From NCBI GenBank assembly GCA_937877295.1, contig CALFIV010000301.1, positions 1 through 11,679 of the forward strand: DNA of 11,679 nt, read 5' to 3'. The position numbers and the translations under genes were made by a program. This DNA is from an uncultured Clostridia bacterium. Lineage in GTDB: Bacteria; Bacillota_A; Clostridia; Christensenellales; CAG-138. Shown here in pieces: positions 1-11,679 of the stretch. Numbering within the stretch: the stretch's first letter is position 1; each line of letters opens with the position of its first letter. The notes under the pieces were generated by a model. That model was not told where the DNA came from. It saw only the letters and a list, made by a program, of their open reading frames with translations, and made no database searches.

Positions 1-1
1 C

Positions 2-148
2 GCAGTACGGGAAATGCGCTACTACACACAGGCGCGTCACTACGCTTTCTCTGACTATGCAAAACGGCTACAGCGCGAGAAATTACGGCAGGAGAGAGTC
101 GGAAATCAGCAGAAACCGCGCAAGAAGCGTTATGAGCCGGAACGGTGA
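2..148 (+). CDS. C-terminal fragment of an unrecognised basic protein (5' end outside window)
   Basis: An open frame enters from the left edge and gives 48 residues before a TGA at 146-148. The visible tail is rich in Arg, Lys, Gln and Tyr and ends in a Lys/Arg cluster (KPRKKRYEPER), with a likely helical stretch before it (DYAKRLQREKLRQERV). Such tails occur on nucleic-acid-binding proteins, including relaxases, recombinases and replication proteins of mobile elements, but no diagnostic motif is present and I do not recognise the family. It converges on the exporter operon. Its reality is supported by the open frame up to the edge and by a hairpin right at the stop codon, but a chance frame cannot be excluded from 48 residues. 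Confidence 0.45.
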   Translation, partial: AVREMRYYTQARHYAFSDYAKRLQREKLRQERVGNQQKPRKKRYEPER

Positions 149-160
149 TCCCGTTTCGGC
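136..160 (+). terminator. Hairpin with the stop codon in its loop; possible weak terminator
   Basis: GCCGGAACGG (136-145) pairs with CCGTTTCGGC (151-160) over 10 bp with one G-T wobble, leaving the 5-base loop TGATC, which contains the TGA of the upstream frame. There is no clean U-tract directly after it, only a T-rich stretch further on. A second small hairpin, GAATG(163-167)/CATTC(172-176), follows. It could be a weak terminator or an mRNA 3'-end stabiliser. Confidence 0.4.
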
Positions 161-377
161 TCGAATGCGCTCATTCTGCTTGATTATCTATGGTAATTTC
201 CCATATTCAACGCAAACGCCTCATGGACGTAAAACACAGTGAATTTATTCTTGCGAGTGGCGGCCAATCATCTTCATGCTAATATTTCTACTGTTGACAT
301 TTCTCCGCAGCCCCAAATCCATAGGCATCTGTAAATCCGACATCTCCCGGTTTCGAAACACTCACAACCGGGGAACG
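149..377. other. Intergenic region between convergent genes
   Basis: These 229 bases separate the left-edge gene from the end of the exporter operon. I see no convincing coding frame; the short + strand frames here lack a ribosome binding site and have no family features. The region holds the hairpin at the stop codon of the left gene, a small hairpin at 163-176, and the hairpin downstream of the operon at 346-372. Confidence 0.5.
346..372 (-). terminator. Hairpin downstream of the exporter operon; possible terminator
   Basis: CCCGGTT (346-352) and AACCGGG (366-372) form a perfect 7-bp stem with a 13-base loop, six bases beyond the TAG of the large adaptor gene on the - strand. On that strand the stem is followed by AGATGTCGGATTT rather than a strong U-tract. 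It is well placed to end the operon transcript but is a weak intrinsic terminator by sequence. Confidence 0.35.
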
Positions 378-3011
378 CTATTGTTCGGTCGTGTAGTAAA
401 CAGAGTCTGCATAGCGGTAAAAGAAAGTATCGCCCTCAGAAAGGCCCGAAACGATCTCCGCGTTCTTTTCGTCAGAGACACCGGTCATAAGAGAAACAGG
501 ATCCAATAGCGCATCGGTCTCCGGATCATATCCACGATATACAACGACCGTGTTACCGGTCTCATAAAGCGCGGCAATCGGTATCAGCAGGGCGTTCTCA
601 TGCGTCTCTCCTGAAAAAGCAACGGTTCCATTCATACCGGGTAGCATAGATTCGGTTCGTGCAACGGTGACCGTGACTGTATATTTCGTGTTGCCTCCAC
701 TGTTGTTGCCCTCAAGGTCGATCTTTGTGACTGTTCCCGTAAAATGTATGCCGGCAAGGGCATCCAGATACAGGGACGTGTTTTGTCCAACCGATATGGA
801 GAGGATATCCAACTCATCGACGGTAACGGAAAGCATCATCGTTTGTTGCGGCGTGACGGAAAGCAGCGTCTTCTCCGCAATTTGATAGGTCGGCGCCTCT
901 GTCGCCTTGGCACTGTTGCCTTTTCCGGAGGGGATGTTGACACTTCCGCCCGAACCATGTCCGCTGCTGGGGTCAGAACTTTCGCCGGAGGGAGACGGTG
1001 TAGAATGCCCGTCGCTCGGATGAGCGCTTGCCTGCGGTGTTTCGGAAGGATTCAGCACGGGTGTCGGCGTCGGGGTGGGAGTGGGCGTAGGCGTCGGAGC
1101 GGCGCTGGGATAGCAGACGACCCATATAAGAGCTTCGGTTTCATCAAAAGCAAAGACCAGAAGGTCTCCGGCAGCGATAGATGAGGCAGGCATTGTTCCC
1201 CACGAGCCCGTGTAAGAATAAATCGGAACTGAGGATGCAATCGTATAGGTTCCCGGCATACTCATGTCCGCACTTGCGATGAAAGAAACATCCGTATAGT
1301 CAGAGACCGTCACAGCGCCGGCTGATATATTTAGTGAAAGCGTTCCTTCCACGTTGTCAGTTACCTGCCCCACATAATGCATATAGTCCGACGGCTCGGC
1401 ATCGACAGGCGAGGTTGAAAGCAACCGTATCATCGGCTCGGTTCCAAGCATCGCGGAAACCTCCCGATAAGGAATCTCCTCCGAAATACCGGAGACGACG
1501 CCGTCTATAGGAGCGAGGATGACTTCATTTTGATACAATTCAAACAGGGTCTTCAGCTCTGCCTCGTATTCGGCGCGTCGCTCCAGAAGTGTACGGTAAT
1601 TTGCAGTATCCGACGCATCGGAAAGTCCGATGAGAACCGTCCCCGAAACGACGACTGTGCCTTCCTCGCGGTAGATTCGTGTCACTGTGCCGAGATAGTG
1701 CGTCACATTCAAAGGACGGTGAACAAACAAAGAACCGCTGCCGCAAAACGTGCCGTTCTCATCGGAAACCGAAACGACTTCCCCGATCGGATAATTCCGG
1801 TCGGGAATGGAAACGATCACGCTGTCCTCTGAAAGATCGGTGATTTCGCCGAGAACGACCGTTCCGTCCGGCAGTGTCACATATAAAATACCATCAATCG
1901 AAGGCACATTCTCTGTGGCGATTTCAACAGACATCCGCCCATCGAGCGATATAAGAAGCAGGCTGCCGTATTCCGCCATCACATCGGAGGCGTCGTCTCC
2001 AACTTTTGCATAAATGTGCTTTACCGTTCCGGATGCGGCGGCAGTCAGCGTTATTTTGCCTACGGCATCATGCGCCTTCTGTAATTGTGCGTCGATCGAC
2101 GCGATCGCCTCCTCCGTATCCGAAATGGCAACCATAACGGAGGTCCTGTCAACTTTAGCGACGATCTGCCCTTCGGAAACGGTTTCACCATTTTGCACGC
2201 AAACTGCGGAAAGCGCGACCGAGGCAGGCAGTGTCACCGTTTCTGCTTCCTGCTCAGAAAGGTATCCCGCGGTGATTAGAGATTCGGTTATAGCACCCTT
2301 CTCGACTGTTCCGGAAAGCACCTCAACCTTTGCAACCGCCTCATTATTGGTCGATTCTGTCGAATCGGCGGGAAAAAGTATCGCTACGAGGACAAGTGCG
2401 GCAATCAGAAGAAGAATCGCAGGCCATACTGCTGTTTTTCCCTGCAACGGAACGGAATTATCGCCTGAATTTTCCGCCTGCATTGCCATAAGCTTTCGAC
2501 TTTTTCTCGTCAGAAAGATCAGACGGAAAATGCAAAGCGCGATCGCGACCGCCGATCCGATCAAAAACCACAGCCAGTATTGGCGCAGAAACAGTACAGC
2601 GCTCCACAGCCATGCAGGAAGAAACGATTGAAGGAACGATGCATTACCCTTATCCGTCGGTTGCTGCGCGTCGTCACCGATCGTATTGTCGATCCTGCCG
2701 TCAGGGCGCCGTGTTTCATCATCGGAAACGGAGAAATCGTTTTCGGGTCGTATCGAGTGCAAACTGCCGTCCGGCGCGGAAAAACTGAATTCACCTTCCG
2801 GCATGATCATATCGGATGCATCTTTCGACATATCGGGAATGCCCTCTTTGTTCGGGAATGTATGCCCGCCCTTTTCTTGTATCCGATCCGACGAATTAAT
2901 GCTCTGTATGACCACGCTTTCCTGTACAAGAAAAAAGACCGCAAGAGCAATGGCAAGCGTCAAAGAAAAGAGAATCAACAATAGGGAAAACAGAATCTTT
3001 TTTACTTTCAT
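378..3011 (-). CDS. Large three-TM membrane-fusion (adaptor) protein of the ABC exporter, 877 aa
   Basis: This is the last gene of the operon and encodes an HlyD/YknX-like adaptor that would link the permease to the cell exterior. The start at 3011 is chosen because GGATGAGGAGG lies just before it and the product then opens with MKVKK plus a membrane helix (about 6-30). It begins 10 bases after the permease stop. Layout: TM1; a polar loop of about 110 residues; TM2 (about 137-167); TM3 (about 195-213); a first lipoyl-like half (about 255-290, with NGETVSEGQIVAKV); an adaptor core; a second lipoyl half (about 497-510, LAPIDGVVSG); an extra beta-rich stretch (about 540-635); a (PT)6 and Ser/Gly/Pro linker (637-706); then a beta-barrel and membrane-proximal region (710-870). 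GSGSLFVHRPLNVTHYLGTV (424-443) matches a segment of the smaller adaptor, so the two are paralogues. Usual adaptors have about 350-560 residues and one N-terminal anchor, so this one is enlarged. The substrate is unknown. Confidence 0.85.
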   Translation of the reverse strand: MKVKKILFSLLLILFSLTLAIALAVFFLVQESVVIQSINSSDRIQEKGGHTFPNKEGIPDMSKDASDMIMPEGEFSFSAPDGSLHSIRPENDFSVSDDETRRPDGRIDNTIGDDAQQPTDKGNASFLQSFLPAWLWSAVLFLRQYWLWFLIGSAVAIALCIFRLIFLTRKSRKLMAMQAENSGDNSVPLQGKTAVWPAILLLIAALVLVAILFPADSTESTNNEAVAKVEVLSGTVEKGAITESLITAGYLSEQEAETVTLPASVALSAVCVQNGETVSEGQIVAKVDRTSVMVAISDTEEAIASIDAQLQKAHDAVGKITLTAAASGTVKHIYAKVGDDASDVMAEYGSLLLISLDGRMSVEIATENVPSIDGILYVTLPDGTVVLGEITDLSEDSVIVSIPDRNYPIGEVVSVSDENGTFCGSGSLFVHRPLNVTHYLGTVTRIYREEGTVVVSGTVLIGLSDASDTANYRTLLERRAEYEAELKTLFELYQNEVILAPIDGVVSGISEEIPYREVSAMLGTEPMIRLLSTSPVDAEPSDYMHYVGQVTDNVEGTLSLNISAGAVTVSDYTDVSFIASADMSMPGTYTIASSVPIYSYTGSWGTMPASSIAAGDLLVFAFDETEALIWVVCYPSAAPTPTPTPTPTPTPVLNPSETPQASAHPSDGHSTPSPSGESSDPSSGHGSGGSVNIPSGKGNSAKATEAPTYQIAEKTLLSVTPQQTMMLSVTVDELDILSISVGQNTSLYLDALAGIHFTGTVTKIDLEGNNSGGNTKYTVTVTVARTESMLPGMNGTVAFSGETHENALLIPIAALYETGNTVVVYRGYDPETDALLDPVSLMTGVSDEKNAEIVSGLSEGDTFFYRYADSVYYTTEQ
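1062..1097 (-). repeat. (Pro-Thr)6-coding repeat within the large adaptor gene
   Basis: Six consecutive Pro-Thr dipeptides (residues 639-650 of the 877-aa adaptor) are encoded by 36 bases in which synonymous codons vary (CCG/CCT/CCC/CCA with ACG/ACC/ACT/ACA). The variation argues that the dipeptide is selected, rather than the repeat being recent slippage. With the following Ser/Gly/Pro-rich stretch it forms a flexible extracytoplasmic linker. Confidence 0.85.
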
Positions 3012-3021
3012 AGTGTCCTCC

Positions 3022-4212
3022 TCATCCGCCGTAATGCAGTGCATCAATCGGCGCCATGCGTGCGGCTTTGTTCGCCGGATACAACCCGAACACAATCCCG
3101 ATCAGGAAGCAGAAACCAACTGCAATCAGAACTATATCGCCGGACATCTTAAAAGTCAGATCAATGCCGGACACGACCGTTGTGATGAGCTGCAGTACGC
3201 CCCAGGAGCCAAAGATCCCTATTGCGCACCCAAGCATACAAATTACAACGGCTTCGACCAAAAACTGCAGAAGGATCACGCTACGGCTTGCGCCGATCGC
3301 CTTTCTAATGCCGATCTCGCGTGTACGTTCCGTCACGGTAACGAGCATGATGTTCATGATGCCGATCCCTCCGACAACCAGTGAAATCGCAGCAATTCCG
3401 CCGAGCAGAACGGCAAGAACCGACGTGACAGAATTCATGGTGCTTTCCAATGCATTCTGAGAAGAGATCGAAAACGCATCGTCGTCTTTGTCGAGCCGTT
3501 CCAGCAGCAACTCCTCCATGCGCGCTTTGGCGGTGTCCGTTGTGACATCGTCCGCTGCAGAAAGATAGAATGTTGTAATTTCAGATGTCACGGTCGTACT
3601 GATGCGAATCAGCGAGGTGTACGGAATGTATGCAATCAGTGATCCGCTTCGAAACGGACTTGTCAAAGAGCTATCGTTGTCCTCAAGTACGCCGACAACC
3701 GAGAACCGATAACCATTCAGAGAGACGTCCTCACCGACGCAATCGGCGTATCCGAAAAGCTCGGTTGCCGCCGTTTCGTTCAGTACACATACGAATGAAT
3801 GATTATTGACGTCGACTGTCTTCAGAAATCTCCCTACGAGAACCGTCAGCTTTTGGATGTCCGCATACGGCGCGGTCGTGCCGTATACGGTCATCGTTGT
3901 GCTGTTTGCACCGTATTTTGCCGTGATGCTCTCGCTGACAGCAGGCGCAATCAAACCGAGTTCAGGTTCATCCATCCAGCCGGACAAGTCTTCTATTGCG
4001 GTCGGATCTCCTTTATTGTCCGTGATGCGTACCGTCATCATATCGGAACCAAGCGACGCGATTCGCTCCTGCACATTGCCCGTTGCGCCGTTGACCAGAC
4101 TGACCAGGATTACCAGCGCCATCACACCGATGATGATGCCGAGCATTGTTAAAAACGCGCGCATCTTATTGCCGGAGATTGATTTGATTGCCATGCGGAC
4201 GGATTGGATCAT
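3022..4212 (-). CDS. MacB/FtsX-type ABC exporter permease, 396 aa (YknZ-like)
   Basis: This is the membrane subunit of a MacB-type exporter. It has an N-terminal helix at about 18-42 (MRAFLTMLGIIIGVMALVIL), a large extracytoplasmic MacB-type domain (about 45-260), then three C-terminal helices (about 263-290, 312-340 and 357-380). Family hallmarks are GGIGIMNIMLVTVTERTREI and IGIRKAIGASR after TM2, and GLYPANKAARMAPIDAL at the end. The length matches B. subtilis YknZ and the MacB permease half without its fused ATPase. The start ATG overlaps the ATPase stop codon by 4 bp (ATGA), so the two are translationally coupled. MacB-type proteins usually act as mechanotransmission pumps together with an adaptor, exporting peptides, toxins or lipid-like compounds, or protecting against them; here adaptor genes lie on both sides of the ATPase-permease pair. 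No broken or missing segment is visible. Confidence 0.93.
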   Translation of the reverse strand: MIQSVRMAIKSISGNKMRAFLTMLGIIIGVMALVILVSLVNGATGNVQERIASLGSDMMTVRITDNKGDPTAIEDLSGWMDEPELGLIAPAVSESITAKYGANSTTMTVYGTTAPYADIQKLTVLVGRFLKTVDVNNHSFVCVLNETAATELFGYADCVGEDVSLNGYRFSVVGVLEDNDSSLTSPFRSGSLIAYIPYTSLIRISTTVTSEITTFYLSAADDVTTDTAKARMEELLLERLDKDDDAFSISSQNALESTMNSVTSVLAVLLGGIAAISLVVGGIGIMNIMLVTVTERTREIGIRKAIGASRSVILLQFLVEAVVICMLGCAIGIFGSWGVLQLITTVVSGIDLTFKMSGDIVLIAVGFCFLIGIVFGLYPANKAARMAPIDALHYGG

Positions 4213-4880
4213 ACGCCCACCTCCGATACACGACCATCCAGAATGTGAATCGATCGGTCCGCCTGCATCGCTACATTCGGATCGTGGGTAATCAGTACGA
4301 TGGTATTTCCTGCCTCATGCAACTCATGAAAAATGTCCATGATCTCCTGCCCTGTGTGAGAATCGAGATTCCCCGTCGGTTCATCCGCAAGAATCAGAGA
4401 GGGCTGCGCCGCAATCGCCCTTGCGATCGCCACGCGCTGCTGCTGTCCGCCGGAAAGCTCGCTCGGCAGATGATGGATGCGGCTCAAAAGCTGTACCCGT
4501 TCCAACGCTTCGGTTGCGCGACGTTTGCGCTCTGACTTTTTCACTCGCTGATAAATCAGTGGCAGCTCAACATTTTCGTACGCCGTGAGTTGGGGAATCA
4601 GGTTGAAGCTCTGAAAGACAAACCCGATCTTTCGGCTGCGAACTTTTGCCAACTCATTTTCGGTATAATCCTCAATGGGCGTTCCATCAAGCAGATATTC
4701 TCCGCTGTCTGCCATGTCCAGACAGCCGATGATATTCATCATCGTGGATTTCCCGCTGCCCGATGGACCGATGATGCTGACAAACTCCCCTGCCCTGATT
4801 TCAAGCGACGCACGATCCAGCGCCTTCACGATCTCATCGCCGATGCAGTAGGTTTTGGAGACATCCTTTAATACAATCAT
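4209..4880 (-). CDS. ABC transporter ATP-binding protein, 223 aa (YknY/MacB/LolD class)
   Basis: This is the cytoplasmic nucleotide-binding subunit that powers the adjacent permease. All ATPase motifs are present: Walker [10 protein letters not shown] (38-46), Q-loop Q90 in VFQSFNL, signature LSGGQQQR (142-149), Walker B LILADEP (162-168) followed by TGNLD, and the switch histidine H199 in LITHD. The [20 protein letters not shown] stretch is typical of the MacB/LolD/YknY subfamily. The ATG lies three bases after the stop of the first adaptor gene, and no strong Shine-Dalgarno is seen, so translation probably depends on coupling from the upstream gene. The 3' end overlaps the permease start by 4 bp. 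The length is normal for the family and an active ATPase is expected. Confidence 0.96.
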
Positions 4881-4883
4881 CGC

Positions 4884-6560
4884 TCAATCACCGCTGTTTC
4901 CATGCTTTCTGCCGCTTCCGCTGTCTCCGCCGGAAGGACGGCTGCCGCCTTCGGAGGGCCGATTGCCGTCGAAATTACCGCCCGGGTTGGGCATGCCTCC
5001 GGAATCGCCCTGATCCGGTCTGTTACCGCTATTCCCGCCGAAACTGTTCATGAAATTCGAGAAATCGCTCTGATCTTCTTCAACATAGTATATGGTATCG
5101 CCTTCGTTCAGCCCGCTGATAATCTCCACATATCCGCCGCCGGACAGTCCGGTCTTAACTTCAACCATGCCGGACAGTTCGCCGGTTGTTTCATCCGCAG
5201 AGGTATAAACATATGCCGTGTCCCGCGTTTTAGTAACCGCTTTTTCAGAAACAATCAGCGCATTGTCCACGCCTTCGATCCGGATTGAAACCGTTGCGTT
5301 CATATTCGGATACATCTTTTCTGTACGATCCAATGTGACTTCGACGGCATAGGTCGTCACGCCGTTACTGCTTGTGCCGGCCTTTTCAATTGCAGTTACC
5401 TCACCGGTAAAGGCATCCTCTCCGATGGATGAAATCACGATGCTTGCCTCCTGCCCAACTGAGACGGCAAGGATGTCCGATTCGTCCACCGCAGCGGAAA
5501 CGATCATGTTTTCCTGCGGAACGATCTCCGCAAGCGTCCATTCGTCACTCTCGTTTTCCGCATTCTCCGTTTCTGTCAGCGTCTGGATTTTTCCGGATAC
5601 AGGCGCATAGATCGCGCCGACTTTATACAGCCGGATAAGCGCATTATACTCTTCTTCAAGCAAGGCGCGCTGCGTCAGCAGCGTCTCATAGTTTGCGGTA
5701 AAGACAGTATCCTTCAAGGTCAAAAGAATCGTTTTGACATTTACAATTCGGTTTTCCGCTGCATTGACACGGCTGATTGTTCCCGCATATCCGGTGATCG
5801 AAAGTGGCTGATGAATGTACAAAACGCCCGATCCGAGCTCGATTCCGTCCGTATCCTTCGCCGTTGCCGAATCGCCGACGATCGTTTTATCGTCCGTAAT
5901 TAAAACGGTTGCGATATCATCCTCTGCCGATTCAACAAACCCAGCATATTCGATTCCATCGGACAGTGAAGCAGTCACCGTGTCTCCCGCAACAAGCGAT
6001 CCGGCAGGAATATCGAAAGCAAGATAGCCGTCCAACGACAGGACCATGAGCGCGTTATGTGCATACATGACCGACAAAACAGAATCTCCTTCCATACAGT
6101 AGATCTCCTTTACGCGACCTTTTACCGTCGACCGGATATAGGTGTCGACCGTGTCCTTTGCCGCGTCTGAAATCTGGCTGTCCAGATCGTCCAGCGTTTC
6201 CTGCAATGCGTTGATCGCTGTCAGAACCGACGGCATGTGCACGTTTGCAATTCGATCACCTTCCTGAATCGTATCGCCCACCTCGAAGCGGATTGCCTGC
6301 ACCGCAACGCCGCTCGGTACGCAAACGGCAGTTGCGTCCTGCTGTGACAGCACGCCGCTGCCGGAGATTGTTGTGCTGATGCTTCCGCGCGTTACGATTG
6401 CGGTTTGAATCTCGGTTGTGTTCTTTTGCCCGTATGTCTCTGACACCCGTTCCCGTAAAATTTTTACCGTGATTGCTCCAGCGACAATCAGCACGGCAAG
6501 GATGATCAGTACCGTAACGAGTACCTTGCGCCCGCGCTTGTTGCGTTTGGATTTTGCCAT
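4884..6560 (-). CDS. Membrane-fusion (adaptor) protein of the ABC exporter, 558 aa, YknX-like with Gly-rich tail
   Basis: This HlyD-family adaptor is the first transporter gene. The start at 6560 is supported by AAAGGAG nine bases upstream and by a product that begins with a basic MAKSKRNKRGRK followed by one membrane helix (about 12-34). The extracytoplasmic part has a first lipoyl-like half (about 80-108, with VGDTIQEGDRIANV), a short helical segment (about 112-135), a barrel-like core, a second helical/lipoyl part (about 290-326, YAPVSGKI), and a beta-barrel (about 350-430, with AAVDESDILAVSVGQEA). A membrane-proximal domain ends near 495. The last 50 residues (505-558) are a Gly/Asn/Ser/Asp/Pro low-complexity tail (for example PNPGGNFDGNRPSEGG). 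It shares GSGVLYIHQPLSITGYAG with the larger adaptor, which indicates duplication. It is a single-membrane exporter adaptor with no outer-membrane partner in the window. Confidence 0.92.
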   Translation of the reverse strand: MAKSKRNKRGRKVLVTVLIILAVLIVAGAITVKILRERVSETYGQKNTTEIQTAIVTRGSISTTISGSGVLSQQDATAVCVPSGVAVQAIRFEVGDTIQEGDRIANVHMPSVLTAINALQETLDDLDSQISDAAKDTVDTYIRSTVKGRVKEIYCMEGDSVLSVMYAHNALMVLSLDGYLAFDIPAGSLVAGDTVTASLSDGIEYAGFVESAEDDIATVLITDDKTIVGDSATAKDTDGIELGSGVLYIHQPLSITGYAGTISRVNAAENRIVNVKTILLTLKDTVFTANYETLLTQRALLEEEYNALIRLYKVGAIYAPVSGKIQTLTETENAENESDEWTLAEIVPQENMIVSAAVDESDILAVSVGQEASIVISSIGEDAFTGEVTAIEKAGTSSNGVTTYAVEVTLDRTEKMYPNMNATVSIRIEGVDNALIVSEKAVTKTRDTAYVYTSADETTGELSGMVEVKTGLSGGGYVEIISGLNEGDTIYYVEEDQSDFSNFMNSFGGNSGNRPDQGDSGGMPNPGGNFDGNRPSEGGSRPSGGDSGSGRKHGNSGD

Positions 6561-6580
6561 TCTTGTTCTCCTTTCGGTTT

Positions 6581-6633
6581 CAAAAAAGATGATTTTTTGC
6601 AATGCCTCCGACAAGCCTTGCGGCTGAAGAGGC
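6581..6633 (-). promoter_or_regulatory. Two adjacent inverted repeats in the leader of the first adaptor gene
   Basis: The 83-base gap between the response regulator and the adaptor is the only sizeable gap in the operon. On the - strand it holds a GC-rich two-part stem, GCCTC/GAGGC outer (6604-6608 with 6629-6633) and AGCC/GGCT inner (6614-6617 with 6622-6625). An AT hairpin follows, CAAAAAA/TTTTTTG (6581-6587 with 6593-6599), just before the AAAGGAG ribosome binding site. It could be a partial terminator, an mRNA processing or stability element, or a translational control structure. I see no clear promoter here. Confidence 0.4.
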
Positions 6634-6643
6634 AACCGTCGCA

Positions 6644-7318
6644 TCAAGCCGATAATGTATGCAGGCAAAAGTGATCCGATACGGGCTCGGTGATGATTAG
6701 TTCCGCCCCGATCACAGACAGTTTTCTCATCAGATATGCAATATATAGTCGCAGAGTATCCATTTGCGCGGACGGTTCATTGTTCCAGATATCGAAAAGC
6801 AATTTTTCGGCCGACAGGGGGCGCCCAAGCTGAGACATAAACGCGTACAGCAGTAAAAATTCTTTGTTAGACAAATAAAGGGTGCTTCGTGCAGTAACAG
6901 AAAAAAGAGCGGGATCAAGTATGACGTTTGCGACATGTAATTCTTGATAATTCGGCGCGGAAGCCCTTCGCGCCAACGCACGAATACGTGCTAGCAGCTC
7001 CTTATAGTCAAACGGCTTCGACAGATAATCGTCTGCGCCAGAATCAAGACCAATAATTTTATCTTCGGTTTCGGATTTTGCCGTCAGCAACAGAACAGGC
7101 GTTTCGATATGCCGCTCTCTCAGCGCTTTTAAGGCGGCAATCCCGTCTACATGTGGCATCATAATATCCATGACAATACAGTCATAACTGTCATGCCGCA
7201 GGCATTCCAGTGCTTCCGCGCCGTCAAATGCAGAAGTCACTTCATACTCAGCGCGTCGCAGCAAATAACAGACCGCACGGTTTAATTCAATTGAATCTTC
7301 TACAAAAAGGATTTTCAT
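6644..7318 (-). CDS. OmpR-family response regulator, 224 aa, with no partner kinase in the window
   Basis: This is a two-domain transcription factor. The receiver domain (1-118) carries the full phosphorylation set: E7/D8, phosphoacceptor D51 in VMDIMMP, T79 and K101 in LSKPFDY. The DNA-binding domain (about 125-222) is winged-helix of the OmpR type, with LSNKEFLLLYAFMSQLGRPL and LLFDIWNN. Its end is divergent: the usual recognition-helix pattern of the vDvhIsrLRrKi type reads DTLRLYIAYLMRKLS, and the conserved terminal TVRGvGY strand is absent (EPVSDHFCLHTLSA). The start ATG overlaps the stop of the alarmone synthetase gene (ATGA), with GGAGAGGAG upstream. No histidine kinase gene is present on either side, so the phosphodonor must be encoded elsewhere or the regulator works without one. 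It probably controls its own operon, which is inferred from position only. Confidence 0.94.
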   Translation of the reverse strand: MKILFVEDSIELNRAVCYLLRRAEYEVTSAFDGAEALECLRHDSYDCIVMDIMMPHVDGIAALKALRERHIETPVLLLTAKSETEDKIIGLDSGADDYLSKPFDYKELLARIRALARRASAPNYQELHVANVILDPALFSVTARSTLYLSNKEFLLLYAFMSQLGRPLSAEKLLFDIWNNEPSAQMDTLRLYIAYLMRKLSVIGAELIITEPVSDHFCLHTLSA

Positions 7319-7917
7319 CCATTCATCTCCTCTCCCTGCAGCATACTGTATATCGTTTGCAGTGTCATATCCGTGGATGCAAGCTCGTCAGCGCAACGTT
7401 TCAGCTCATTCATCAGCAGCTTCTCGTTTTGAGGAAGCAATTTCTTATATCGTATCTGATGCTCAAGAGCTGCCCACGTATCCATGGATATGGTTCTGAT
7501 CTGTACTTCAGCATAATATTCTCCGTTATACAGAATCATATGATAGCTGCGATACCCATTTGGCTTTACATTACGAATATAGTCCTTTTCCCGGATTACT
7601 GCTATCCCGTCAAGCCCGGCAATATAGTTGCGCATACGGTATACATCATCTAAAAACGGACAGATAACGCGTAAACCGATTGCGTCCGTAATTTCGTGCA
7701 ATGCGCTCTCTTTTGTCTCCGGTAAACCAAGACGCCGACATTTTTCTCGCATACTGTCCTCGGATTTGATACGGCATTTGAGGTGCTCGACTGGGTTCAT
7801 ACCGGTTCTCTGCTCCATCTGTACGGAATATGTCTTGATTCTTTCCGCAAGCACATGCATATATTCCTGCATCACAGCGATATCATTTCCGTATAGCTCT
7901 TCGTTGGTTCGCACCAT
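7315..7917 (-). CDS. Small alarmone (p)ppGpp synthetase, RelQ/YjbM-like, 200 aa
   Basis: This is a single-domain RelA/SpoT synthetase that transfers pyrophosphate from ATP to GDP/GTP. The start at 7917 follows GGGAGG closely; an upstream in-frame ATG (7974) lacks such a site. Motifs include HLKCRIKSEDSMREK (45-59, matching the family pattern RxKSxxSxxxK), DAIGLRV (78-84), the nucleotide-binding stretch KPNGYRSYH (118-126), and catalytic AEVQIRT (136-142) followed by ISMDTWAALEHQIRYK (143-158). There is no HD hydrolase, TGS or ACT domain, and the length is close to that of RelQ, so it should make but not destroy alarmone. All residues I would expect in an active enzyme are present. It is the promoter-proximal gene of the operon and overlaps the regulator by 4 bp, so synthetase and regulator are probably made together. 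Assignment to RelQ rather than RelP is by motif resemblance only. Confidence 0.93.
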   Translation of the reverse strand: MVRTNEELYGNDIAVMQEYMHVLAERIKTYSVQMEQRTGMNPVEHLKCRIKSEDSMREKCRRLGLPETKESALHEITDAIGLRVICPFLDDVYRMRNYIAGLDGIAVIREKDYIRNVKPNGYRSYHMILYNGEYYAEVQIRTISMDTWAALEHQIRYKKLLPQNEKLLMNELKRCADELASTDMTLQTIYSMLQGEEMNG

Positions 7918-7948
7918 TGCAAATCCTCCCAATTTCAGTAATAACAGG

Positions 7949-7961
7949 ATTGCGAAGCAAT
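7949..7961 (-). promoter_or_regulatory. Perfect inverted repeat in the 5' leader of the synthetase operon
   Basis: ATTGC-GAA-GCAAT is a perfect 5-bp dyad with a 3-base centre, about 32 bases upstream of the synthetase start. If the promoter at 7985-8012 is used, it falls in the untranslated leader, where it could be a small RNA hairpin or a DNA operator. Confidence 0.35.
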
Positions 7962-7984
7962 AATCTGTCAGCAATAAATCTATT

Positions 7985-8012
7985 ATTTTACCTATACACT
8001 ATATCGGTTTAA
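7985..8012 (-). promoter_or_regulatory. Candidate promoter of the synthetase-exporter operon with an imperfect dyad in its spacer
   Basis: On the - strand, TTAAAC (8012-8007) and TAAAAT (7990-7985) are separated by 16 bp, a plausible sigma-A promoter about 70 bases before the synthetase start. The spacer and box edges contain the imperfect 19-bp palindrome ACCgATAtAgTgTATaGGT (7990-8008), with ACC/GGT ends and ATA/TAT inner arms. This is where a repressor or the operon's own regulator could bind. The -35 box is weak. Confidence 0.4.
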
Positions 8013-8092
8013 CCTTAGAAGAACTTTAACTATTTCTGGAAAATTGCTGCCTGGGCATTTCCGCTTTTTAAAATCATTAAAACCGGACTTAT

Positions 8093-8104
8093 TTAGAGTT
8101 AGAC
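8093..8104 (+). promoter_or_regulatory. Tandem hexamers TTAGAG-TTAGAC in the shared upstream region
   Basis: Two adjacent near-identical hexamers (TTAGAG, TTAGAC) lie in the region between the divergent synthetase operon and the 90-aa gene. OmpR-type regulators often bind direct repeats, so this is a candidate site, but such short repeats arise easily by chance. TTAGAG could also serve as a poor -35 box with TATTAC 17 bp further on. Confidence 0.2.
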
Positions 8105-8163
8105 TAAGTTTGCTCTATTACCTTAATAATAGATGGGGATTCCTATCGGAAAGAAGATACAGT

Positions 8164-8436
8164 ATGTTCGATAAGCTGAAGAAAAAACTGTTTTGGGAAG
8201 TAACGGAAGATGCGACAACCGATCAGGAAACGATGGGAACGGAATCCAAGGAGCAACGTCCACAGCCACCGCAAGGCAGACCACCACAGGGGGAACCGCC
8301 GAAAGGCAATCCCTCGATGGGAAGCCCCCTGCAAGGCGAGCCGCCAAAGGGTAAGCCTCCTATGGGAGAACCGCCACAGGGTGAGTCGTCGACGGAAACA
8401 AACAAGAATCCTACCGATAACTCAACCGAAGCGTGA
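8164..8436 (+). CDS. Small Pro/Gly-rich pentapeptide-repeat protein, 90 aa, function unknown
   Basis: I do not recognise a family. The start at 8164 gives MFDKLKKKLFWEVTED, a short amphipathic, Lys-rich N-terminus that might bind a membrane or partner. An acidic/polar stretch follows (17-34), then eight in-register pentapeptides of the form PP(Q/K/M)Gx (35-74), then a polar Thr/Asn/Ser tail ending DNSTEA. There is no signal peptide, membrane helix or cysteine. The ribosome binding site is modest (GGAAAGAAG about 7 bases upstream). The frame stays open upstream to a TTG at 8044, but that segment looks non-coding. The gene is divergent from the alarmone synthetase operon and followed by a probable terminator. 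Low complexity makes the call moderately secure; the protein might be a flexible linker or scaffold. Confidence 0.6.
   Translation: MFDKLKKKLFWEVTEDATTDQETMGTESKEQRPQPPQGRPPQGEPPKGNPSMGSPLQGEPPKGKPPMGEPPQGESSTETNKNPTDNSTEA
8266..8385 (+). repeat. Eight 15-bp units encoding PPxGx pentapeptides
   Basis: The units read PPQGR, PPQGE, PPKGN, PSMGS, PLQGE, PPKGK, PPMGE and PPQGE, all in register without interruption. At the DNA level the copies differ at many silent positions, so the array is old and constrained at the protein level, although copy number could still vary between strains. Confidence 0.88.
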
Positions 8437-8481
8437 TTTGTTGAATTACTACGAAACGATCAATCACTTTGCAAAAGGAAT

Positions 8482-8530
8482 CAAACAACAGTTAGGTGTC
8501 TATCAGCGCCTGACTGTTTGTTGTGTTCCG
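8482..8530 (+). terminator. Probable intrinsic terminator of the 90-aa gene
   Basis: AACAGTTAGGTG (8487-8498) pairs with CGCCTGACTGTT (8507-8518) over 12 bp with two G-T wobbles and an 8-base loop. It is followed by TGTTGTGTT, a U-rich tail. It lies about 50 bases after the stop codon of the repeat protein. Confidence 0.6.
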
Positions 8531-8650
8531 AATCCCCGCCATAGGATTGCTTTAATTCTCTACAGCACTATTCGTTTATTTACGGTTTGTTTTTAGCAGT
8601 TGACTATAGAAATTCAAAAAGTCTAAAAGCCCCTTGACAAATAGAACCTT

Positions 8651-8703
8651 CTGCCTCCCTTTACGGCAGTCTGGCAGCGTGTCAAAAGGTTTTTTGACAC
8701 GCT
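8651..8703. repeat. Two tandem inverted repeats, possible intergenic repeat element
   Basis: CTGCC (8651-8655) pairs with GGCAG (8665-8669). Then AGCGTGTCAAAA (8676-8687) and TTTTGACACGCT (8692-8703) form a perfect 12-bp stem with loop GGTT. The second stem is too long and perfect to be chance. Being intergenic and palindromic, it may be a bidirectional terminator for the two flanking genes, or a member of a dispersed repeat family. Confidence 0.6.
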
Positions 8704-8705
8704 CG

Positions 8706-8731
8706 GAGGGTGCGCGAGTACCCTCTGTTTT
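8706..8731 (+). terminator. Rho-independent terminator, + strand orientation
   Basis: GAGGGT (8706-8711) and ACCCTC (8720-8725) enclose an 8-base loop and are followed by TGTTTTTAT on the + strand. On the opposite strand the same stem follows the LOG gene's stop codon but lacks a U-tract. It would stop rightward readthrough into the LOG gene's antisense strand. Confidence 0.6.
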
Positions 8732-9264
8732 TATGCGTTCAGAATGGAAACGATCTCTTCGAGGTTTTTTGCAAAGCGGATGCCGCGCTGCTTTTCGGGC
8801 GTGCAGAGCTCCTTTTCGAGCATCTCTTGAAGCAGGATGCGCATGCCCGTATAGTAGCCGTTGAGATCATAGAGGATGCACGGCGCGTCGAGGTGACCCA
8901 AAGCGACCTTACTCATGATCTCGGCGATCTCCTCGAGCGTGCCGGTGCCGCCGGGGAACGCGATAAAAGCGTCGCCCAGCTCGATCATCTTTGCCTTGCG
9001 CTCGCTCATATCCTTTGTGACGATCAGCTCGTCGATCGCGTCGTACACAAAGCCCGCATCGACAAAGAACTGCGGTTCAACGCCGATCACGCGGCCGCCG
9101 GTTTTGAGCACGCTCTGAGCAAGCTCGCCCATCAGGCCGCATTTGGATCCGCCGTAGACGAGTGTGTGCCCGTGACTGCCGATCCATGCGCCGAGTTCGC
9201 GTACCGCATCCGTCAAGACCGGATCGTTGCCGGGCGTCGCGCCGAGATATACCGTAATGTTCAT
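8731..9264 (-). CDS. LOG-family (TIGR00730, lysine decarboxylase-like) nucleotide-processing protein, 177 aa
   Basis: This is a Rossmann-fold protein of the LOG family, whose characterised members are phosphoribohydrolases that release a base from nucleoside 5'-monophosphates (cytokinin-activating enzymes in plants and some bacteria). Visible family motifs are YGGSKCGLMG (37-46), MSERKAKM (86-93, including the conserved Arg-Lys), and the signature PGGTGTLEE (104-112) with its catalytic Glu. The start at 9264 is fixed by GGAGG seven bases upstream; longer in-frame starts would overlap the promoter. The length fits the family (about 180-195). It is monocistronic and divergent from the SDR/SPFH pair. 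The older name lysine decarboxylase is misleading. The physiological substrate in this organism is unknown. Confidence 0.93.
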   Translation of the reverse strand: MNITVYLGATPGNDPVLTDAVRELGAWIGSHGHTLVYGGSKCGLMGELAQSVLKTGGRVIGVEPQFFVDAGFVYDAIDELIVTKDMSERKAKMIELGDAFIAFPGGTGTLEEIAEIMSKVALGHLDAPCILYDLNGYYTGMRILLQEMLEKELCTPEKQRGIRFAKNLEEIVSILNA

Positions 9265-9287
9265 AAATTCCTCCGTCATTTTCTCCC

Positions 9288-9316
9288 ATTGTAATGCGTA
9301 ATTCGGGAATTGTAAA
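9288..9316 (-). promoter_or_regulatory. Sigma-A promoter of the LOG-family gene
   Basis: On the - strand, TTTACA (9316-9311) and TACAAT (9293-9288) are separated by exactly 17 bp, close to consensus. The -10 box ends 23 bases before the start codon. The -35 box overlaps that of the opposing promoter. Confidence 0.8.
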
Positions 9317-9338
9317 GCGGCGGAGACTTTGTTATAAT
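9310..9338 (+). promoter_or_regulatory. Sigma-A promoter of the SDR-SPFH operon
   Basis: TTGTAA (9310-9315) and a consensus TATAAT (9333-9338) are separated by 17 bp, 27 bases before the SDR start codon. The -35 box shares five bases with the -35 box of the LOG gene promoter on the other strand. Confidence 0.85.
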
Positions 9339-9365
9339 AAATTATCACAACACAAGGAGAACGAT

Positions 9366-10127
9366 ATGAGGATCGCAGTCATCACCGGAGCGTCGTCCGG
9401 TATGGGCAGAGAATTTGCAAAGGCGGTCGACCGCGCGTATGCGCTCGACGAGATCTGGTTGATCGCACGCAGAAAGGAACGGCTTCTGGCGCTTGCGGGC
9501 GAATGCAGGACGCCGATCCGCGCGCTGGATTGGGACTTGTCCGCACCCGAAAGCCTCAATGCCTATCGCGAGCTTCTCGCTGCCGAACAGCCGGAGATTC
9601 AAATCCTCATCAACGCCGCGGGCTACGGTGTGTTCTGTACGTTTTCCGAAGGCGATCCCGAAAACCAGCTCGGCATTGTGGACCTCAACGACCGTGCGCT
9701 GACGGCGATGTGTTCCCTTTCGCTTCCGTACATCAAGGCGGGCGGCGAGATCGTCAACCTCGGTTCGAATTCGAGCTGGCAGCCCGTGCCGTACATGGCG
9801 GTCTACGCAGCGAGCAAGGCATACGTATTGAGCTTCAGCCGCGCTTTGGGGCGCGAGCTGAAAACCCGCGGCATACATGTGCTGTGCGTTTGCCCGGGCT
9901 GGATCAAAACCGAATTCATGGACCGCGCGGTGCATGACGACACGATCACCTATTACGATCGCTGGTACACGGCGGAGCAGGTTGTGGAGCGTGCCATGAA
10001 GGATCTCAAAAAGCGCAGGTCGGTGTCGATTCTCGGTTTCCCGGTTCGCATGCAGGTGCGGCTGGTCAAGCTTCTGCCGGTCAGCTGGGTGATGAACACC
10101 TGGTGCAAGCAGCAAAAGAAGGCGTAA
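9366..10127 (+). CDS. Short-chain dehydrogenase/reductase (SDR), 253 aa
   Basis: This is a classical SDR oxidoreductase, predicted to be NAD(P)-dependent and cytoplasmic. The start at 9366 has AAGGAG seven bases upstream and opens directly with MRIAVITGASSGMG. Motifs are the cofactor loop TGASSGMG (7-14), ARR at 34-36 (an Arg after strand 2, which often favours NADPH), the NAAG strand (83-86), catalytic Ser around 134-137 (GSNSS), catalytic Tyr147/Lys151 in YAASK, and PGWIKTEF (177-184). The C-terminus (about 215-250) is basic and hydrophobic (VRMQVRLVKLLPVSWVM) and may contact membrane or substrate. Length is normal. Its stop is two bases from the start of the SPFH gene, so the pair is co-transcribed from the promoter at 9310-9338. 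The substrate cannot be predicted. Confidence 0.94.
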   Translation: MRIAVITGASSGMGREFAKAVDRAYALDEIWLIARRKERLLALAGECRTPIRALDWDLSAPESLNAYRELLAAEQPEIQILINAAGYGVFCTFSEGDPENQLGIVDLNDRALTAMCSLSLPYIKAGGEIVNLGSNSSWQPVPYMAVYAASKAYVLSFSRALGRELKTRGIHVLCVCPGWIKTEFMDRAVHDDTITYYDRWYTAEQVVERAMKDLKKRRSVSILGFPVRMQVRLVKLLPVSWVMNTWCKQQKKA

Positions 10128-10129
10128 CC

Positions 10130-11014
10130 ATGGGGATCGTTCGAGCGATTTTGACCTCTGCGGATTCGGTTCTGCAGGAGCAATGGCGGGAATTCTTCTA
10201 TTGCGAGTCCATGAGCAGCGAAACGCTGATGGCATGCGGCAAAAAGCGCACCGGCGAACGCAGTACGAACACGAACCCGGACGATCACATCATCACCAAC
10301 GGATCAATCCTCTCGATCGCCGACGGACAGTCCGCGATCGTCGTTTCACGGGGCAAGGTAATCGACGTCTGTTCAGAGCCCGGCGAGCATCTCTTTGAAG
10401 ATGCGAATCGCCCGGGCGGCATCGGCGGATTTGTGAAGGATGTCTGGACGCGCGTCGGCTTCGGCGGCGTGCAGCCGATCGTTCATCGCATCTATTATGT
10501 AAATACCAAGGAATGCACGGGCGTCCGCTTTGATACGCCCGCGCCGATTCCGCTGTGCGTCAGGGATGCGAAGCTCGGCGCGGACCTCGACCTTTGTGTA
10601 CAGGCGGGCGGCGTCTATTCCTATCGCGTCAAGGACCCTGTGCGGCTGTATCGCAATGTCATGGGGAACATGAAGGACAACTACACCCGCCACGATCTCA
10701 ACCTCTTTGTGACGATGCTGCTGCTTTCCGTTCTTCCCGAAGCGCTTGCCGAACTGACGGACGGAGGCATTCGCCCGTACGAGCTTCCGCTGCATACCAA
10801 AGCGCTCGGTGACGCCGTGATTGCAAAAAGCGCGGAAACGCTTCTCTTAAGCTACGGATTGGAGTTTGTGTCAATTGCGTTCGACACGCTGATCGTCACC
10901 GATCTCGGGACGCTGCAAAGCGCGCAGCATGCCGCGATCAACCGCGATCCCGCCATGGCTGCGGCAGCATTGACAGACGCGGCAGCGATTGCCTCGCAGA
11001 ATCTGAAACAGTAA
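10130..11014 (+). CDS. SPFH-domain (virion core/YdjI-like) protein, 294 aa
   Basis: This resembles the bacterial SPFH proteins annotated as virion core protein-like or YdjI-like, which assemble on membranes and are linked to envelope stress. The first 35 residues include GIVRAILTSADSVLQEQWREFF, typical of the family. Then come DHIITNGSILSIADGQSAIV (52-71), a pattern of an SPFH start, GEHLFE (85-90), and the SPFH core to about 255. The last 40 residues are Ala-rich (AAAALTDAAAIASQNLKQ). I see no transmembrane helix and no C-terminal Cys-rich zinc ribbon, which many relatives carry, so this is a short form. The start at 10130 has AGAAGG upstream and lies two bases after the SDR stop. A strong terminator follows the stop codon, which argues that the 3' end is genuine. 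Confidence 0.85.
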   Translation: MGIVRAILTSADSVLQEQWREFFYCESMSSETLMACGKKRTGERSTNTNPDDHIITNGSILSIADGQSAIVVSRGKVIDVCSEPGEHLFEDANRPGGIGGFVKDVWTRVGFGGVQPIVHRIYYVNTKECTGVRFDTPAPIPLCVRDAKLGADLDLCVQAGGVYSYRVKDPVRLYRNVMGNMKDNYTRHDLNLFVTMLLLSVLPEALAELTDGGIRPYELPLHTKALGDAVIAKSAETLLLSYGLEFVSIAFDTLIVTDLGTLQSAQHAAINRDPAMAAAALTDAAAIASQNLKQ

Positions 11015-11020
11015 TGCAAA

Positions 11021-11070
11021 AAGCCGTTCGGAAACTCGAAAGAGAATCCGAACGGCTTGTTTGTTCTTTT
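11021..11070. terminator. Strong bidirectional intrinsic terminator between the SPFH gene and tyrS
   Basis: AAGCCGTTCGGA (11021-11032) and TCCGAACGGCTT (11047-11058) form a perfect 12-bp stem with a 14-base loop. Rightward transcription meets GTTTGTTCTTTT after the stem. Leftward transcription meets TTTTTGCAT, in which part of the T-run comes from the stem foot. It serves the two convergent genes. Confidence 0.85.
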
Positions 11071-11074
11071 CGGA

Positions 11075-11679
11075 TCAGAGCGTGAAGCGCATATAAGTCT
11101 TCTTGCCCTTGCGGATCTTGACGCCGTCTGAAAGCTGCGCCTCGGTGATGTTCATCCATGTGTCGCCGACGCGTGCGCCGTCGAGCTGGATCGAGCCCTG
11201 CTCAATCAGCGTCCGGATCTTGCCCTTGGACTTTTCGATGCCGCCCAGAAGCAGCATGTCGACGATGTTGATTTTGCCGTCCGTCAGAGCGCCTGCGGGA
11301 ACGGTCGTCTGCGGCATATTCGCATTGTCGCCGCTGCCGGAAAACAGCGCGCGCGCCGCATTCTGCGCCTTCTCGGCTTCTTCCTCGCCGTGCACCAGGC
11401 GGGTCAGCTCGAACGCCAGAAGCTCCTTCTTCTCGTTGATGCGGCTTGCGTCCCAATGCTCGATCTCTTCGATCTCCTCGATCGGAATGAAGGTCAGCAT
11501 GCGGATGCATTTCATCACGTCCGCGTCGTCGACGTTGCGCCAGTACTGATAGAACTCAAACGGCGAGGTCTTGTTCGGATCGAGCCAGACGGCGTTGCCC
11601 GCGGTCTTGCCCATCTTGTTGCCGTTGGAGTCGGTCAGCAGCGTGATGGTCATGGCGTAAGCGTCCCTGCCCAGCTTGC
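11075..11679 (-). CDS. tyrS: Tyrosyl-tRNA synthetase, C-terminal part (5' end outside window)
   Basis: The frame is open to the right edge and continues beyond it, and the visible 201 residues end at TAA-side FTL. They include the class I signature loop written KMGKT (family KMSKS) in DSNGNKMGKTAGNAVWLDP, followed by TSPFEFYQYWRNVDDADV and IPIEEI, which are characteristic of bacterial TyrS. An S4 RNA-binding domain (IVDMLLLGGIEKSKGKIRTL and QLDGARVGDTWMNI) completes the end. The enzyme charges tRNA-Tyr in the cytoplasm. The Met at 11653 is internal, since coding sequence (KLGRDAYA) precedes it. The catalytic HIGH motif and Rossmann start lie outside the window. No T-box leader can be seen because the 5' side is missing. 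Confidence 0.96.
   Translation of the reverse strand, partial: KLGRDAYAMTITLLTDSNGNKMGKTAGNAVWLDPNKTSPFEFYQYWRNVDDADVMKCIRMLTFIPIEEIEEIEHWDASRINEKKELLAFELTRLVHGEEEAEKAQNAARALFSGSGDNANMPQTTVPAGALTDGKINIVDMLLLGGIEKSKGKIRTLIEQGSIQLDGARVGDTWMNITEAQLSDGVKIRKGKKTYMRFTL

Follow-up and report, generated by a model that had tools for sequence, protein, structure and literature searches.

A small alarmone synthetase and a response regulator precede the genes of a two-adaptor exporter

We analysed 11,679 nucleotides of DNA from an uncultured Clostridia bacterium (contig CALFIV010000301.1, positions 1 to 11,679; hereafter the window), in which genes for a small alarmone synthetase (SAS) and an OmpR-type response regulator (RR) stand directly in front of the genes of an ABC exporter. 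The window contains six minus-strand frames between positions 378 and 7917, all of them real and correctly placed and all carrying the expected Pfam domains, which encode, in minus-strand order, the SAS, the RR, adaptor 1, an ATPase, a MacB-type permease, and a large adaptor 2. The features are as follows (coordinates are those of the best starts; the Pfam scan of the adaptors used the longer frames 4884-6668 for adaptor 1 and 378-3095 for adaptor 2):

7315..7917, minus strand: SAS, 200 amino acids (aa); Pfam RelA_SpoT, 1.7e-29
7315..7318, minus strand: four-base ATGA overlap of the SAS stop and the RR start, read from the sequence
6644..7318, minus strand: RR (OmpR-type), 224 aa, without an adjacent kinase; Pfam Response_reg and Trans_reg_C
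6561..6643, minus strand: gap of about 82 bases between RR and adaptor 1; blastn similarity to the nearest relatives ends inside it, at 6578
4884..6560, minus strand: adaptor 1 (HlyD/MacA-like), 558 aa; Pfam HlyD_3, 1.4e-12; 75% identical to that of locus L247
4209..4880, minus strand: ABC ATPase of the MacB/LolD kind, 223 aa; Pfam ABC_tran, 2.7e-34
4209..4212, minus strand: four-base ATGA overlap of ATPase and permease, read from the sequence
3022..4212, minus strand: MacB-type permease, 396 aa; Pfam MacB_PCD, 1.8e-37, and FtsX; PDB MacB, 2.7e-60
378..3011, minus strand: adaptor 2, 877 aa; Pfam HlyD_3
7918..8163, no strand assigned: region upstream of the SAS gene, common to a divergent 90-aa frame, with a weak 7-base direct repeat of period 11

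Ribosome sites are clear and purine-rich in five of the six genes; the ATPase site is weak. A Pfam scan of ten window proteins found no kinase domain. Terminator-like sites across the window are at chance level (15, versus 12.7 in shuffles), and the gap between RR and adaptor 1 has no more structure than shuffled sequence (z = −0.66). The original prediction, which described a six-gene minus-strand run with these parts, two ATGA overlaps, no kinase, and no convincing internal terminator, is borne out in each of these respects, and the run is probably one operon. The GC content at third codon positions (GC3) is 0.70-0.85 in the flanking genes, lower in the exporter genes (0.55-0.61), and lowest in the SAS and RR genes (0.46-0.49), a pattern compatible with acquired DNA.

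The SAS-RR pair occupies the slot of a divergent RR-kinase pair

Comparison with the nearest exporters, those of genomes G919 (locus L246) and G924 (L247), reveals where the two halves of the run meet. The identities to the window are 90-91% for the permease (91% to G919), 91% for the ATPase, 75% for adaptor 1, and 68-69% for adaptor 2. For a TyrS fragment, which lies at the opposite end of the window, identity is 84% to the G919 counterpart and at most 68% in nine other genomes with a match; G924 has no match to it. Both relatives have the same four exporter genes in the same order; in place of the SAS-RR pair, they have an RR-kinase pair divergent from the exporter, the RR of which is 37% identical to the window RR.

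Similarity between the window and these relatives, as detected by blastn, covers 371-2673 and 2915-6578 (73% and 78%) and ends 18 bases short of the adaptor 1 start, just upstream of its ribosome site; the sole further match upstream of 6578 comprises 34 bases inside the RR gene. Since similarity stops at 6578, the relatives' intergenic region between RR and adaptor 1, which is about 290 bases long and likely contains the exporter promoter, is missing from the window. Because this likely promoter is absent, the proposal that the exporter may depend on the promoter of the SAS-RR pair gains support. Judged from the alignment, the SAS-RR pair occupies the slot that, in the relatives, holds the divergent RR-kinase pair and the likely exporter promoter.

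The SAS-RR pair and the exporter are distributed independently

A genome scan yielded 328 SAS relatives; locus counts refer to the best 80 of the 328, a sample that leans to close relatives. The RR gene adjoins the SAS gene downstream, on the same strand, in 78 of the 80 loci, with the offset of a four-base overlap in 18 of the 78; the two exceptions are L007, in which no RR was found, and L009, in which an RR and an apparent kinase are convergent on the other strand. The gene after the RR encodes HisKA in 73 and HATPase_c in 71 of 75 testable loci. The two non-kinase followers are a leucyl-tRNA synthetase gene (L017) and a second RR followed by a kinase-like gene and an HtrA-like protease (L025). 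By gene order, SAS-RR-kinase is the usual unit among the sampled close relatives and is comparable with relPRS of Streptococcus mutans. No common gene after the kinase was found: a same-strand gene is in reach in 37 of the 75 loci, and the largest similarity group has four members. In a family represented by 115 genomes (the G324 family), 37 have an SAS at 1e-20; a kinase is present in 11 of the 16 best-scoring loci (L170-L179 and L099) and absent from five (L180-L184, with the L183 piece ending 353 bases after the RR). In the latter five, a pseudouridine synthase gene precedes the kinase-less SAS-RR pair and a DUF2298 gene is convergent to it (domains assigned in L182 only); the exporter lies on other contigs of these genomes.

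The exporter has its own distribution. An adaptor 2 alignment, searched at 1e-60 (1e-100 for the closest family) in groups that overlap, finds matches in 14 of 103 genomes of the closest family (the G639 family), 18 of 115 in the G324 family, 22 of 188 in the order to which that family belongs, 12 of 297 in the order of G226, which matches the window TyrS well, and 5 of 391 in a class; none of 28 genomes in the order of G267, called the best TyrS match, has the exporter. The exporter sample comprises 44 fetched loci, one per genome, two of them on pieces without a permease and some on pieces cut near the first adaptor. The adaptor-ATPase-permease-adaptor cassette is whole in 32 of the 44. Its local regulators differ: an RR-kinase pair is beside the cassette in nine loci (L098, L100, L132, L134 with weak matches, L198, L199, L200, L246, and L247), and an HxlR-like gene is beside it in six (L126-L130 and L137; Pfam on L127 alone, the others looking alike). 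In several loci (L127-L129 and L137), an RR-kinase pair of lower similarity is also present, 1-2 kb past adaptor 2.

The two rarely meet. Window-like adaptors or permease were found at none of the 80 SAS loci (phmmer, 1e-8; pieces of 3-20 kb, of which the short ones, some of 3-5 kb, may miss a distant exporter), and 13 genomes of SAS loci gave weak adaptor 2 matches only, in four, the best at 2.6e-35. Conversely, as far as the pieces reach, an SAS is in none of the 44 exporter operons; the sole piece that has one, L099, carries it in an SAS-RR-kinase unit about 4.9 kb away, on the other strand. In the closest family, exporter and SAS (at E 1e-15) each occur in 14 of 103 genomes with an overlap of zero, so none of its 14 exporter-bearing genomes has an SAS; the SAS scores are 136-168 bits in 13 of the genomes and 223 in the remaining one, G934. 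Of the 12 exporter-bearing genomes in G226's order, only G644 has SAS matches, one of which is an SAS-RR-kinase unit on a contig other than the exporter's. Ten genomes of the G324 family have both, near each other only in G171 and on different contigs in nine. Absence of an SAS from one draft genome is weak evidence, less so the absences taken together. On this neighbourhood comparison, which the original prediction had named as a test of itself, the expectation of a conserved system is not sustained: the SAS-RR pair and the exporter are two independent modules, and their linkage is lineage-specific.

The synthetase is nearer RelP than RelQ

The window SAS had been called RelQ-like, a label that score comparison does not favour. 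Among PDB entries, YwaC and 6ewz (which we take to be Staphylococcus aureus RelP) are best, at 110 bits, versus 81 for YjbM/RelQ, and a profile of 18 sequences has the same preference (148 bits for the YwaC/6ewz side, versus 117). The NCBIfam YjbM model gives 108 bits, below its curated cut-off of 320. By these scores, the window SAS is nearer RelP/YwaC than RelQ/YjbM and is RelP-class. Positions D78, G81, R83, E137, Q139, and R141 are invariant in an alignment of 18 sequences that includes the window SAS. A protein database search gave 4840 SAS relatives; of 120 that were listed, one reaches 80% identity and the rest at most 65%. With respect to toxSAS toxin-antitoxin systems, in which a toxic synthetase adjoins its antitoxin gene, the gene beside the window SAS is, by Pfam, the RR.

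The response regulator has diverged

The RR retains receiver residues E7, D8, D51, T79, and K101, to which we presumptively assign their functional roles, and keeps the phospho-acceptor Asp. The DNA-binding part has an altered GERGGSF-like end in the window RR and in P0190, which, with P0003 (80% identical), represents a sister lineage of the window. Compared with 77 SAS-linked RRs, the window RR has a mean identity of 57.6% for the receiver and 32.6% for the DNA-binding part; among the 77 themselves the means are 69.8% and 47.6%. By this measure, the window RR has diverged. The cluster containing it is listed with two contigs, which is a hint only.

A quick tree of 72 of 103 collected RRs puts the window on a long branch inside a 57-row SAS-linked set (Shimodaira-Hasegawa-like approximate likelihood-ratio test, SH-aLRT, 98); exporter-linked RRs do not form one group in it, because the RR of L134 stands apart on a very long branch. 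Smaller, more careful trees excluded that RR. In the tree of 50 rows, the window RR and P0190 (73% identical) pair at 100/100 and are joined by L025 at 97/85, all within a 16-row group at 100/99 and among SAS-linked regulators; in the tree of 44 rows, eight exporter-linked RRs group separately, together with the second RR of L025, at 100/98. An SAS tree (63 of 94 rows) groups the window SAS with those of L006, L008, L012, L015, L025, L030, L073, and L080 (nine rows, SH-aLRT 92). The trees favour, without proving, that the window RR is kin to the SAS-linked regulators.

Comparison with known systems

The nearest parallel is in S. mutans. According to PMC4963387, relPRS is an operon of a RelP synthetase, an RR, and a kinase, close to rcrRPQ, an operon of a MarR-like repressor and two ABC exporters; cross-regulation between the two is reported, and RcrR binds the relP promoter in vitro. 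The window resembles relPRS in having SAS and RR adjacent in one probable operon with exporter genes close by. It differs in lacking the kinase, which makes it a kinase-less variant rather than a member; in having its exporter in the same gene run, whereas two genes separate the S. mutans operons in that account; and in its exporter, which is MacB-type with two adaptors, neither a MarR-like repressor nor two fused ABC exporters being among the window's Pfam matches. RelP/SasA-type genes of S. aureus and B. subtilis are also described, in PMC10117726, as controlled by two-component systems that respond to cell-wall stress (VraRS and WalKR).

The exporter, for which PDB matches include entries titled YknZ and Spr0693, resembles MacAB, YknXYZ, and the Spr0693 system in its MacB_PCD-FtsX permease, separate ATPase, and MacA-like adaptor, and differs from them in its two adaptors, the second of 877 aa with an extended N-terminal part, and in having the SAS-RR pair in the regulator slot. 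Bce-type systems have a BceS-like kinase and BceAB; the window has no kinase and a permease of the MacB type. Clostridial SAS-RR-kinase loci (such as L006 and L012) and the kinase-less L017 and L180-L184 have SAS then RR, as in the window, and no such exporter behind the RR.

A literature search, which left most subscription papers outside it, found no SAS-RR pair in a MacB-type exporter operon, and passages of the RSH (RelA/SpoT homologue) family paper PMC3153485 contain nothing on an SAS-RR-exporter gene order. The original statement that no characterised system of this composition is known must be qualified by relPRS, with its neighbouring exporter operon and reported cross-regulation. Each half is of a known kind; the joining of SAS-RR and exporter looks local to the lineage.

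A candidate stress operon and its alternatives

We consider it somewhat probable (about 0.58) that a relPRS-type module without its kinase fronts the two-adaptor exporter and drives both as one stress operon. Gene order, the separate distribution of the modules, and the breakpoint at 6578 are its demonstrated parts. Beyond these, the six genes would form one transcript from a promoter upstream of 7917, which the RR would activate once phosphorylated, with acetyl phosphate or a different cellular kinase as the donor; expression would determine the output of the synthetase, as with RelP/SasA, which VraRS and WalKR control; and the exporter would work like YknXYZ or the Spr0693 system, whose roles we take as a model. 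Envelope or peptide-antibiotic stress would then raise synthetase and exporter together, with (p)ppGpp slowing growth as the pump expels the agent. HtrA-like genes beside SAS loci (L025, 9980-14582; L266, 2379-4376) and beside exporter loci (L246, 690-2090; L100, 13269-14510) suggest an envelope-stress setting; those of L025 and L100 were called by NCBIfam and those of L246 and L266 by similarity to that of L100, and no RR was found between the SAS and HtrA genes of L266.

Several observations weigh against this stress operon. A single contig shows the linkage. When the window RR is forced into a group with exporter-linked RRs, the approximately unbiased test does not reject the tree (p-AU 0.0575 with 50 rows and 0.209 with 44). 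Somewhat more distant relatives (L216-L218, L240, L242-L245, and L248) have neither RR nor SAS beside the exporter, so that either arrangement may be the older. Promoter-like sites lie inside the SAS and RR genes (7368-7340 and 7185-7158), at chance level. No convincing RR box is common to 73 SAS upstream regions, and no binding site is demonstrable. Finally, the lack of a kinase applies to the window, and the host genome may carry one elsewhere.

A simpler account is a swap of regulators, in which the exporter came under this RR and the SAS is a passenger with no special link to export. SAS and RR occur together in 78 of the 80 loci, and either could be the selected part; exporters elsewhere, moreover, have very different local regulators, as the nine RR-kinase pairs and six HxlR-like genes illustrate. 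We nevertheless regard the swap as doubtful: the window SAS retains its invariant positions and, as the first gene of a probable transcript, would be made whenever the pump is. A more elaborate reading of the locus, a hard-wired alarmone-efflux operon whose RR, placed in the promoter slot of the exporter, with its kinase lost and its DNA-binding part altered, couples (p)ppGpp synthesis to pumping through a single transcript and answers to an input other than a partner kinase, perhaps metabolic state or the exporter itself, seems to us unlikely.

That the modules are chance neighbours, with the exporter on its own promoter and the common direction of no consequence, would fit the 82-base gap and the unconserved linkage; the relatives' intergenic region is missing, however, and the promoter scan lists no minus-strand promoter-like site between 6560 and 6700 (a weak test), making this quite improbable. 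An assembly artefact, in which the contig joins pieces of different genomes, would explain both the linkage in a single contig and the unlike GC3 of SAS/RR, exporter, and flanking genes. It would, however, need two wrong joins, since TyrS (84% identical to that of G919) and the permease (91%) tie the two window ends to one lineage; the SAS-RR pair has intergenic borders on either side; and the two contigs of the RR cluster hint in the same direction. We judge it very improbable.

If the coupling is true, the locus would be a natural case of growth arrest and efflux under one promoter, in which the contribution of alarmones to antibiotic tolerance could be examined without resort to pleiotropic mutants. 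The SAS-RR-kinase arrangement, usual among the sampled closest relatives, extends the S. mutans design; its many loci are a place to ask what the kinase senses, with the kinase-less loci as a natural experiment.

Upstream sequences and further features

Promoter-like sites across the window are at chance level (10, versus 10.4 in shuffles), and Rfam scans gave no match. Upstream of the 73 SAS genes, 7-base repeats have period 11 in 31 (19.4 in shuffles) and period 21 in 32 (20.0), the two highest counts of 14 spacings with 7-base units, from 28 tests in all. The divergent plus-strand frame at 8164-8436 encodes 90 aa with PPxGxPPKG-like repeats and has its upstream region in common with the SAS gene; no clear relative was found among the collected loci (best tblastn E 0.11).

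Just upstream of SAS-RR-kinase, seven Pseudobutyrivibrio loci (L026, L035, L047, L061, L062, L079, and L082) carry two ABC genes and a small gene with a lipoprotein-like product. A parallel of this ABC pair with RcrPQ was considered and rejected; the pair is CydDC-like, and the small gene that follows has no Pfam match (L061 only).

Scoring of 8000 candidates gave 68 matches to adaptor 2, of which 36 have lengths of 786-958 aa. A low-confidence structure model (predicted local distance difference test, pLDDT, 64.5), used for fold class only, has long N-terminal helices (2-28, 146-181, and 196-212), Pro/Gly-rich stretches, and an adaptor domain, with structural matches to MacA, AcrA, and Spr0693. 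The ATPase scores 264 bits against NCBIfam MacB, below the cut-off of 966. In G657, adaptor 1 is split by an in-frame TAG (L217, 10715-12394).

Viral contigs gave no match to adaptor 2 or to the RR; searched with the SAS, they gave two distant loci (43% and 45%). Plasmid and phage records (42 and 29) match the SAS only, all below 60% identity. One viral contig, L001, carries a distant SAS at 5088-5762, and one SAS relative, P0002, has 295 aa with a 44-residue stretch three times in tandem, either genuine or an assembly fault.

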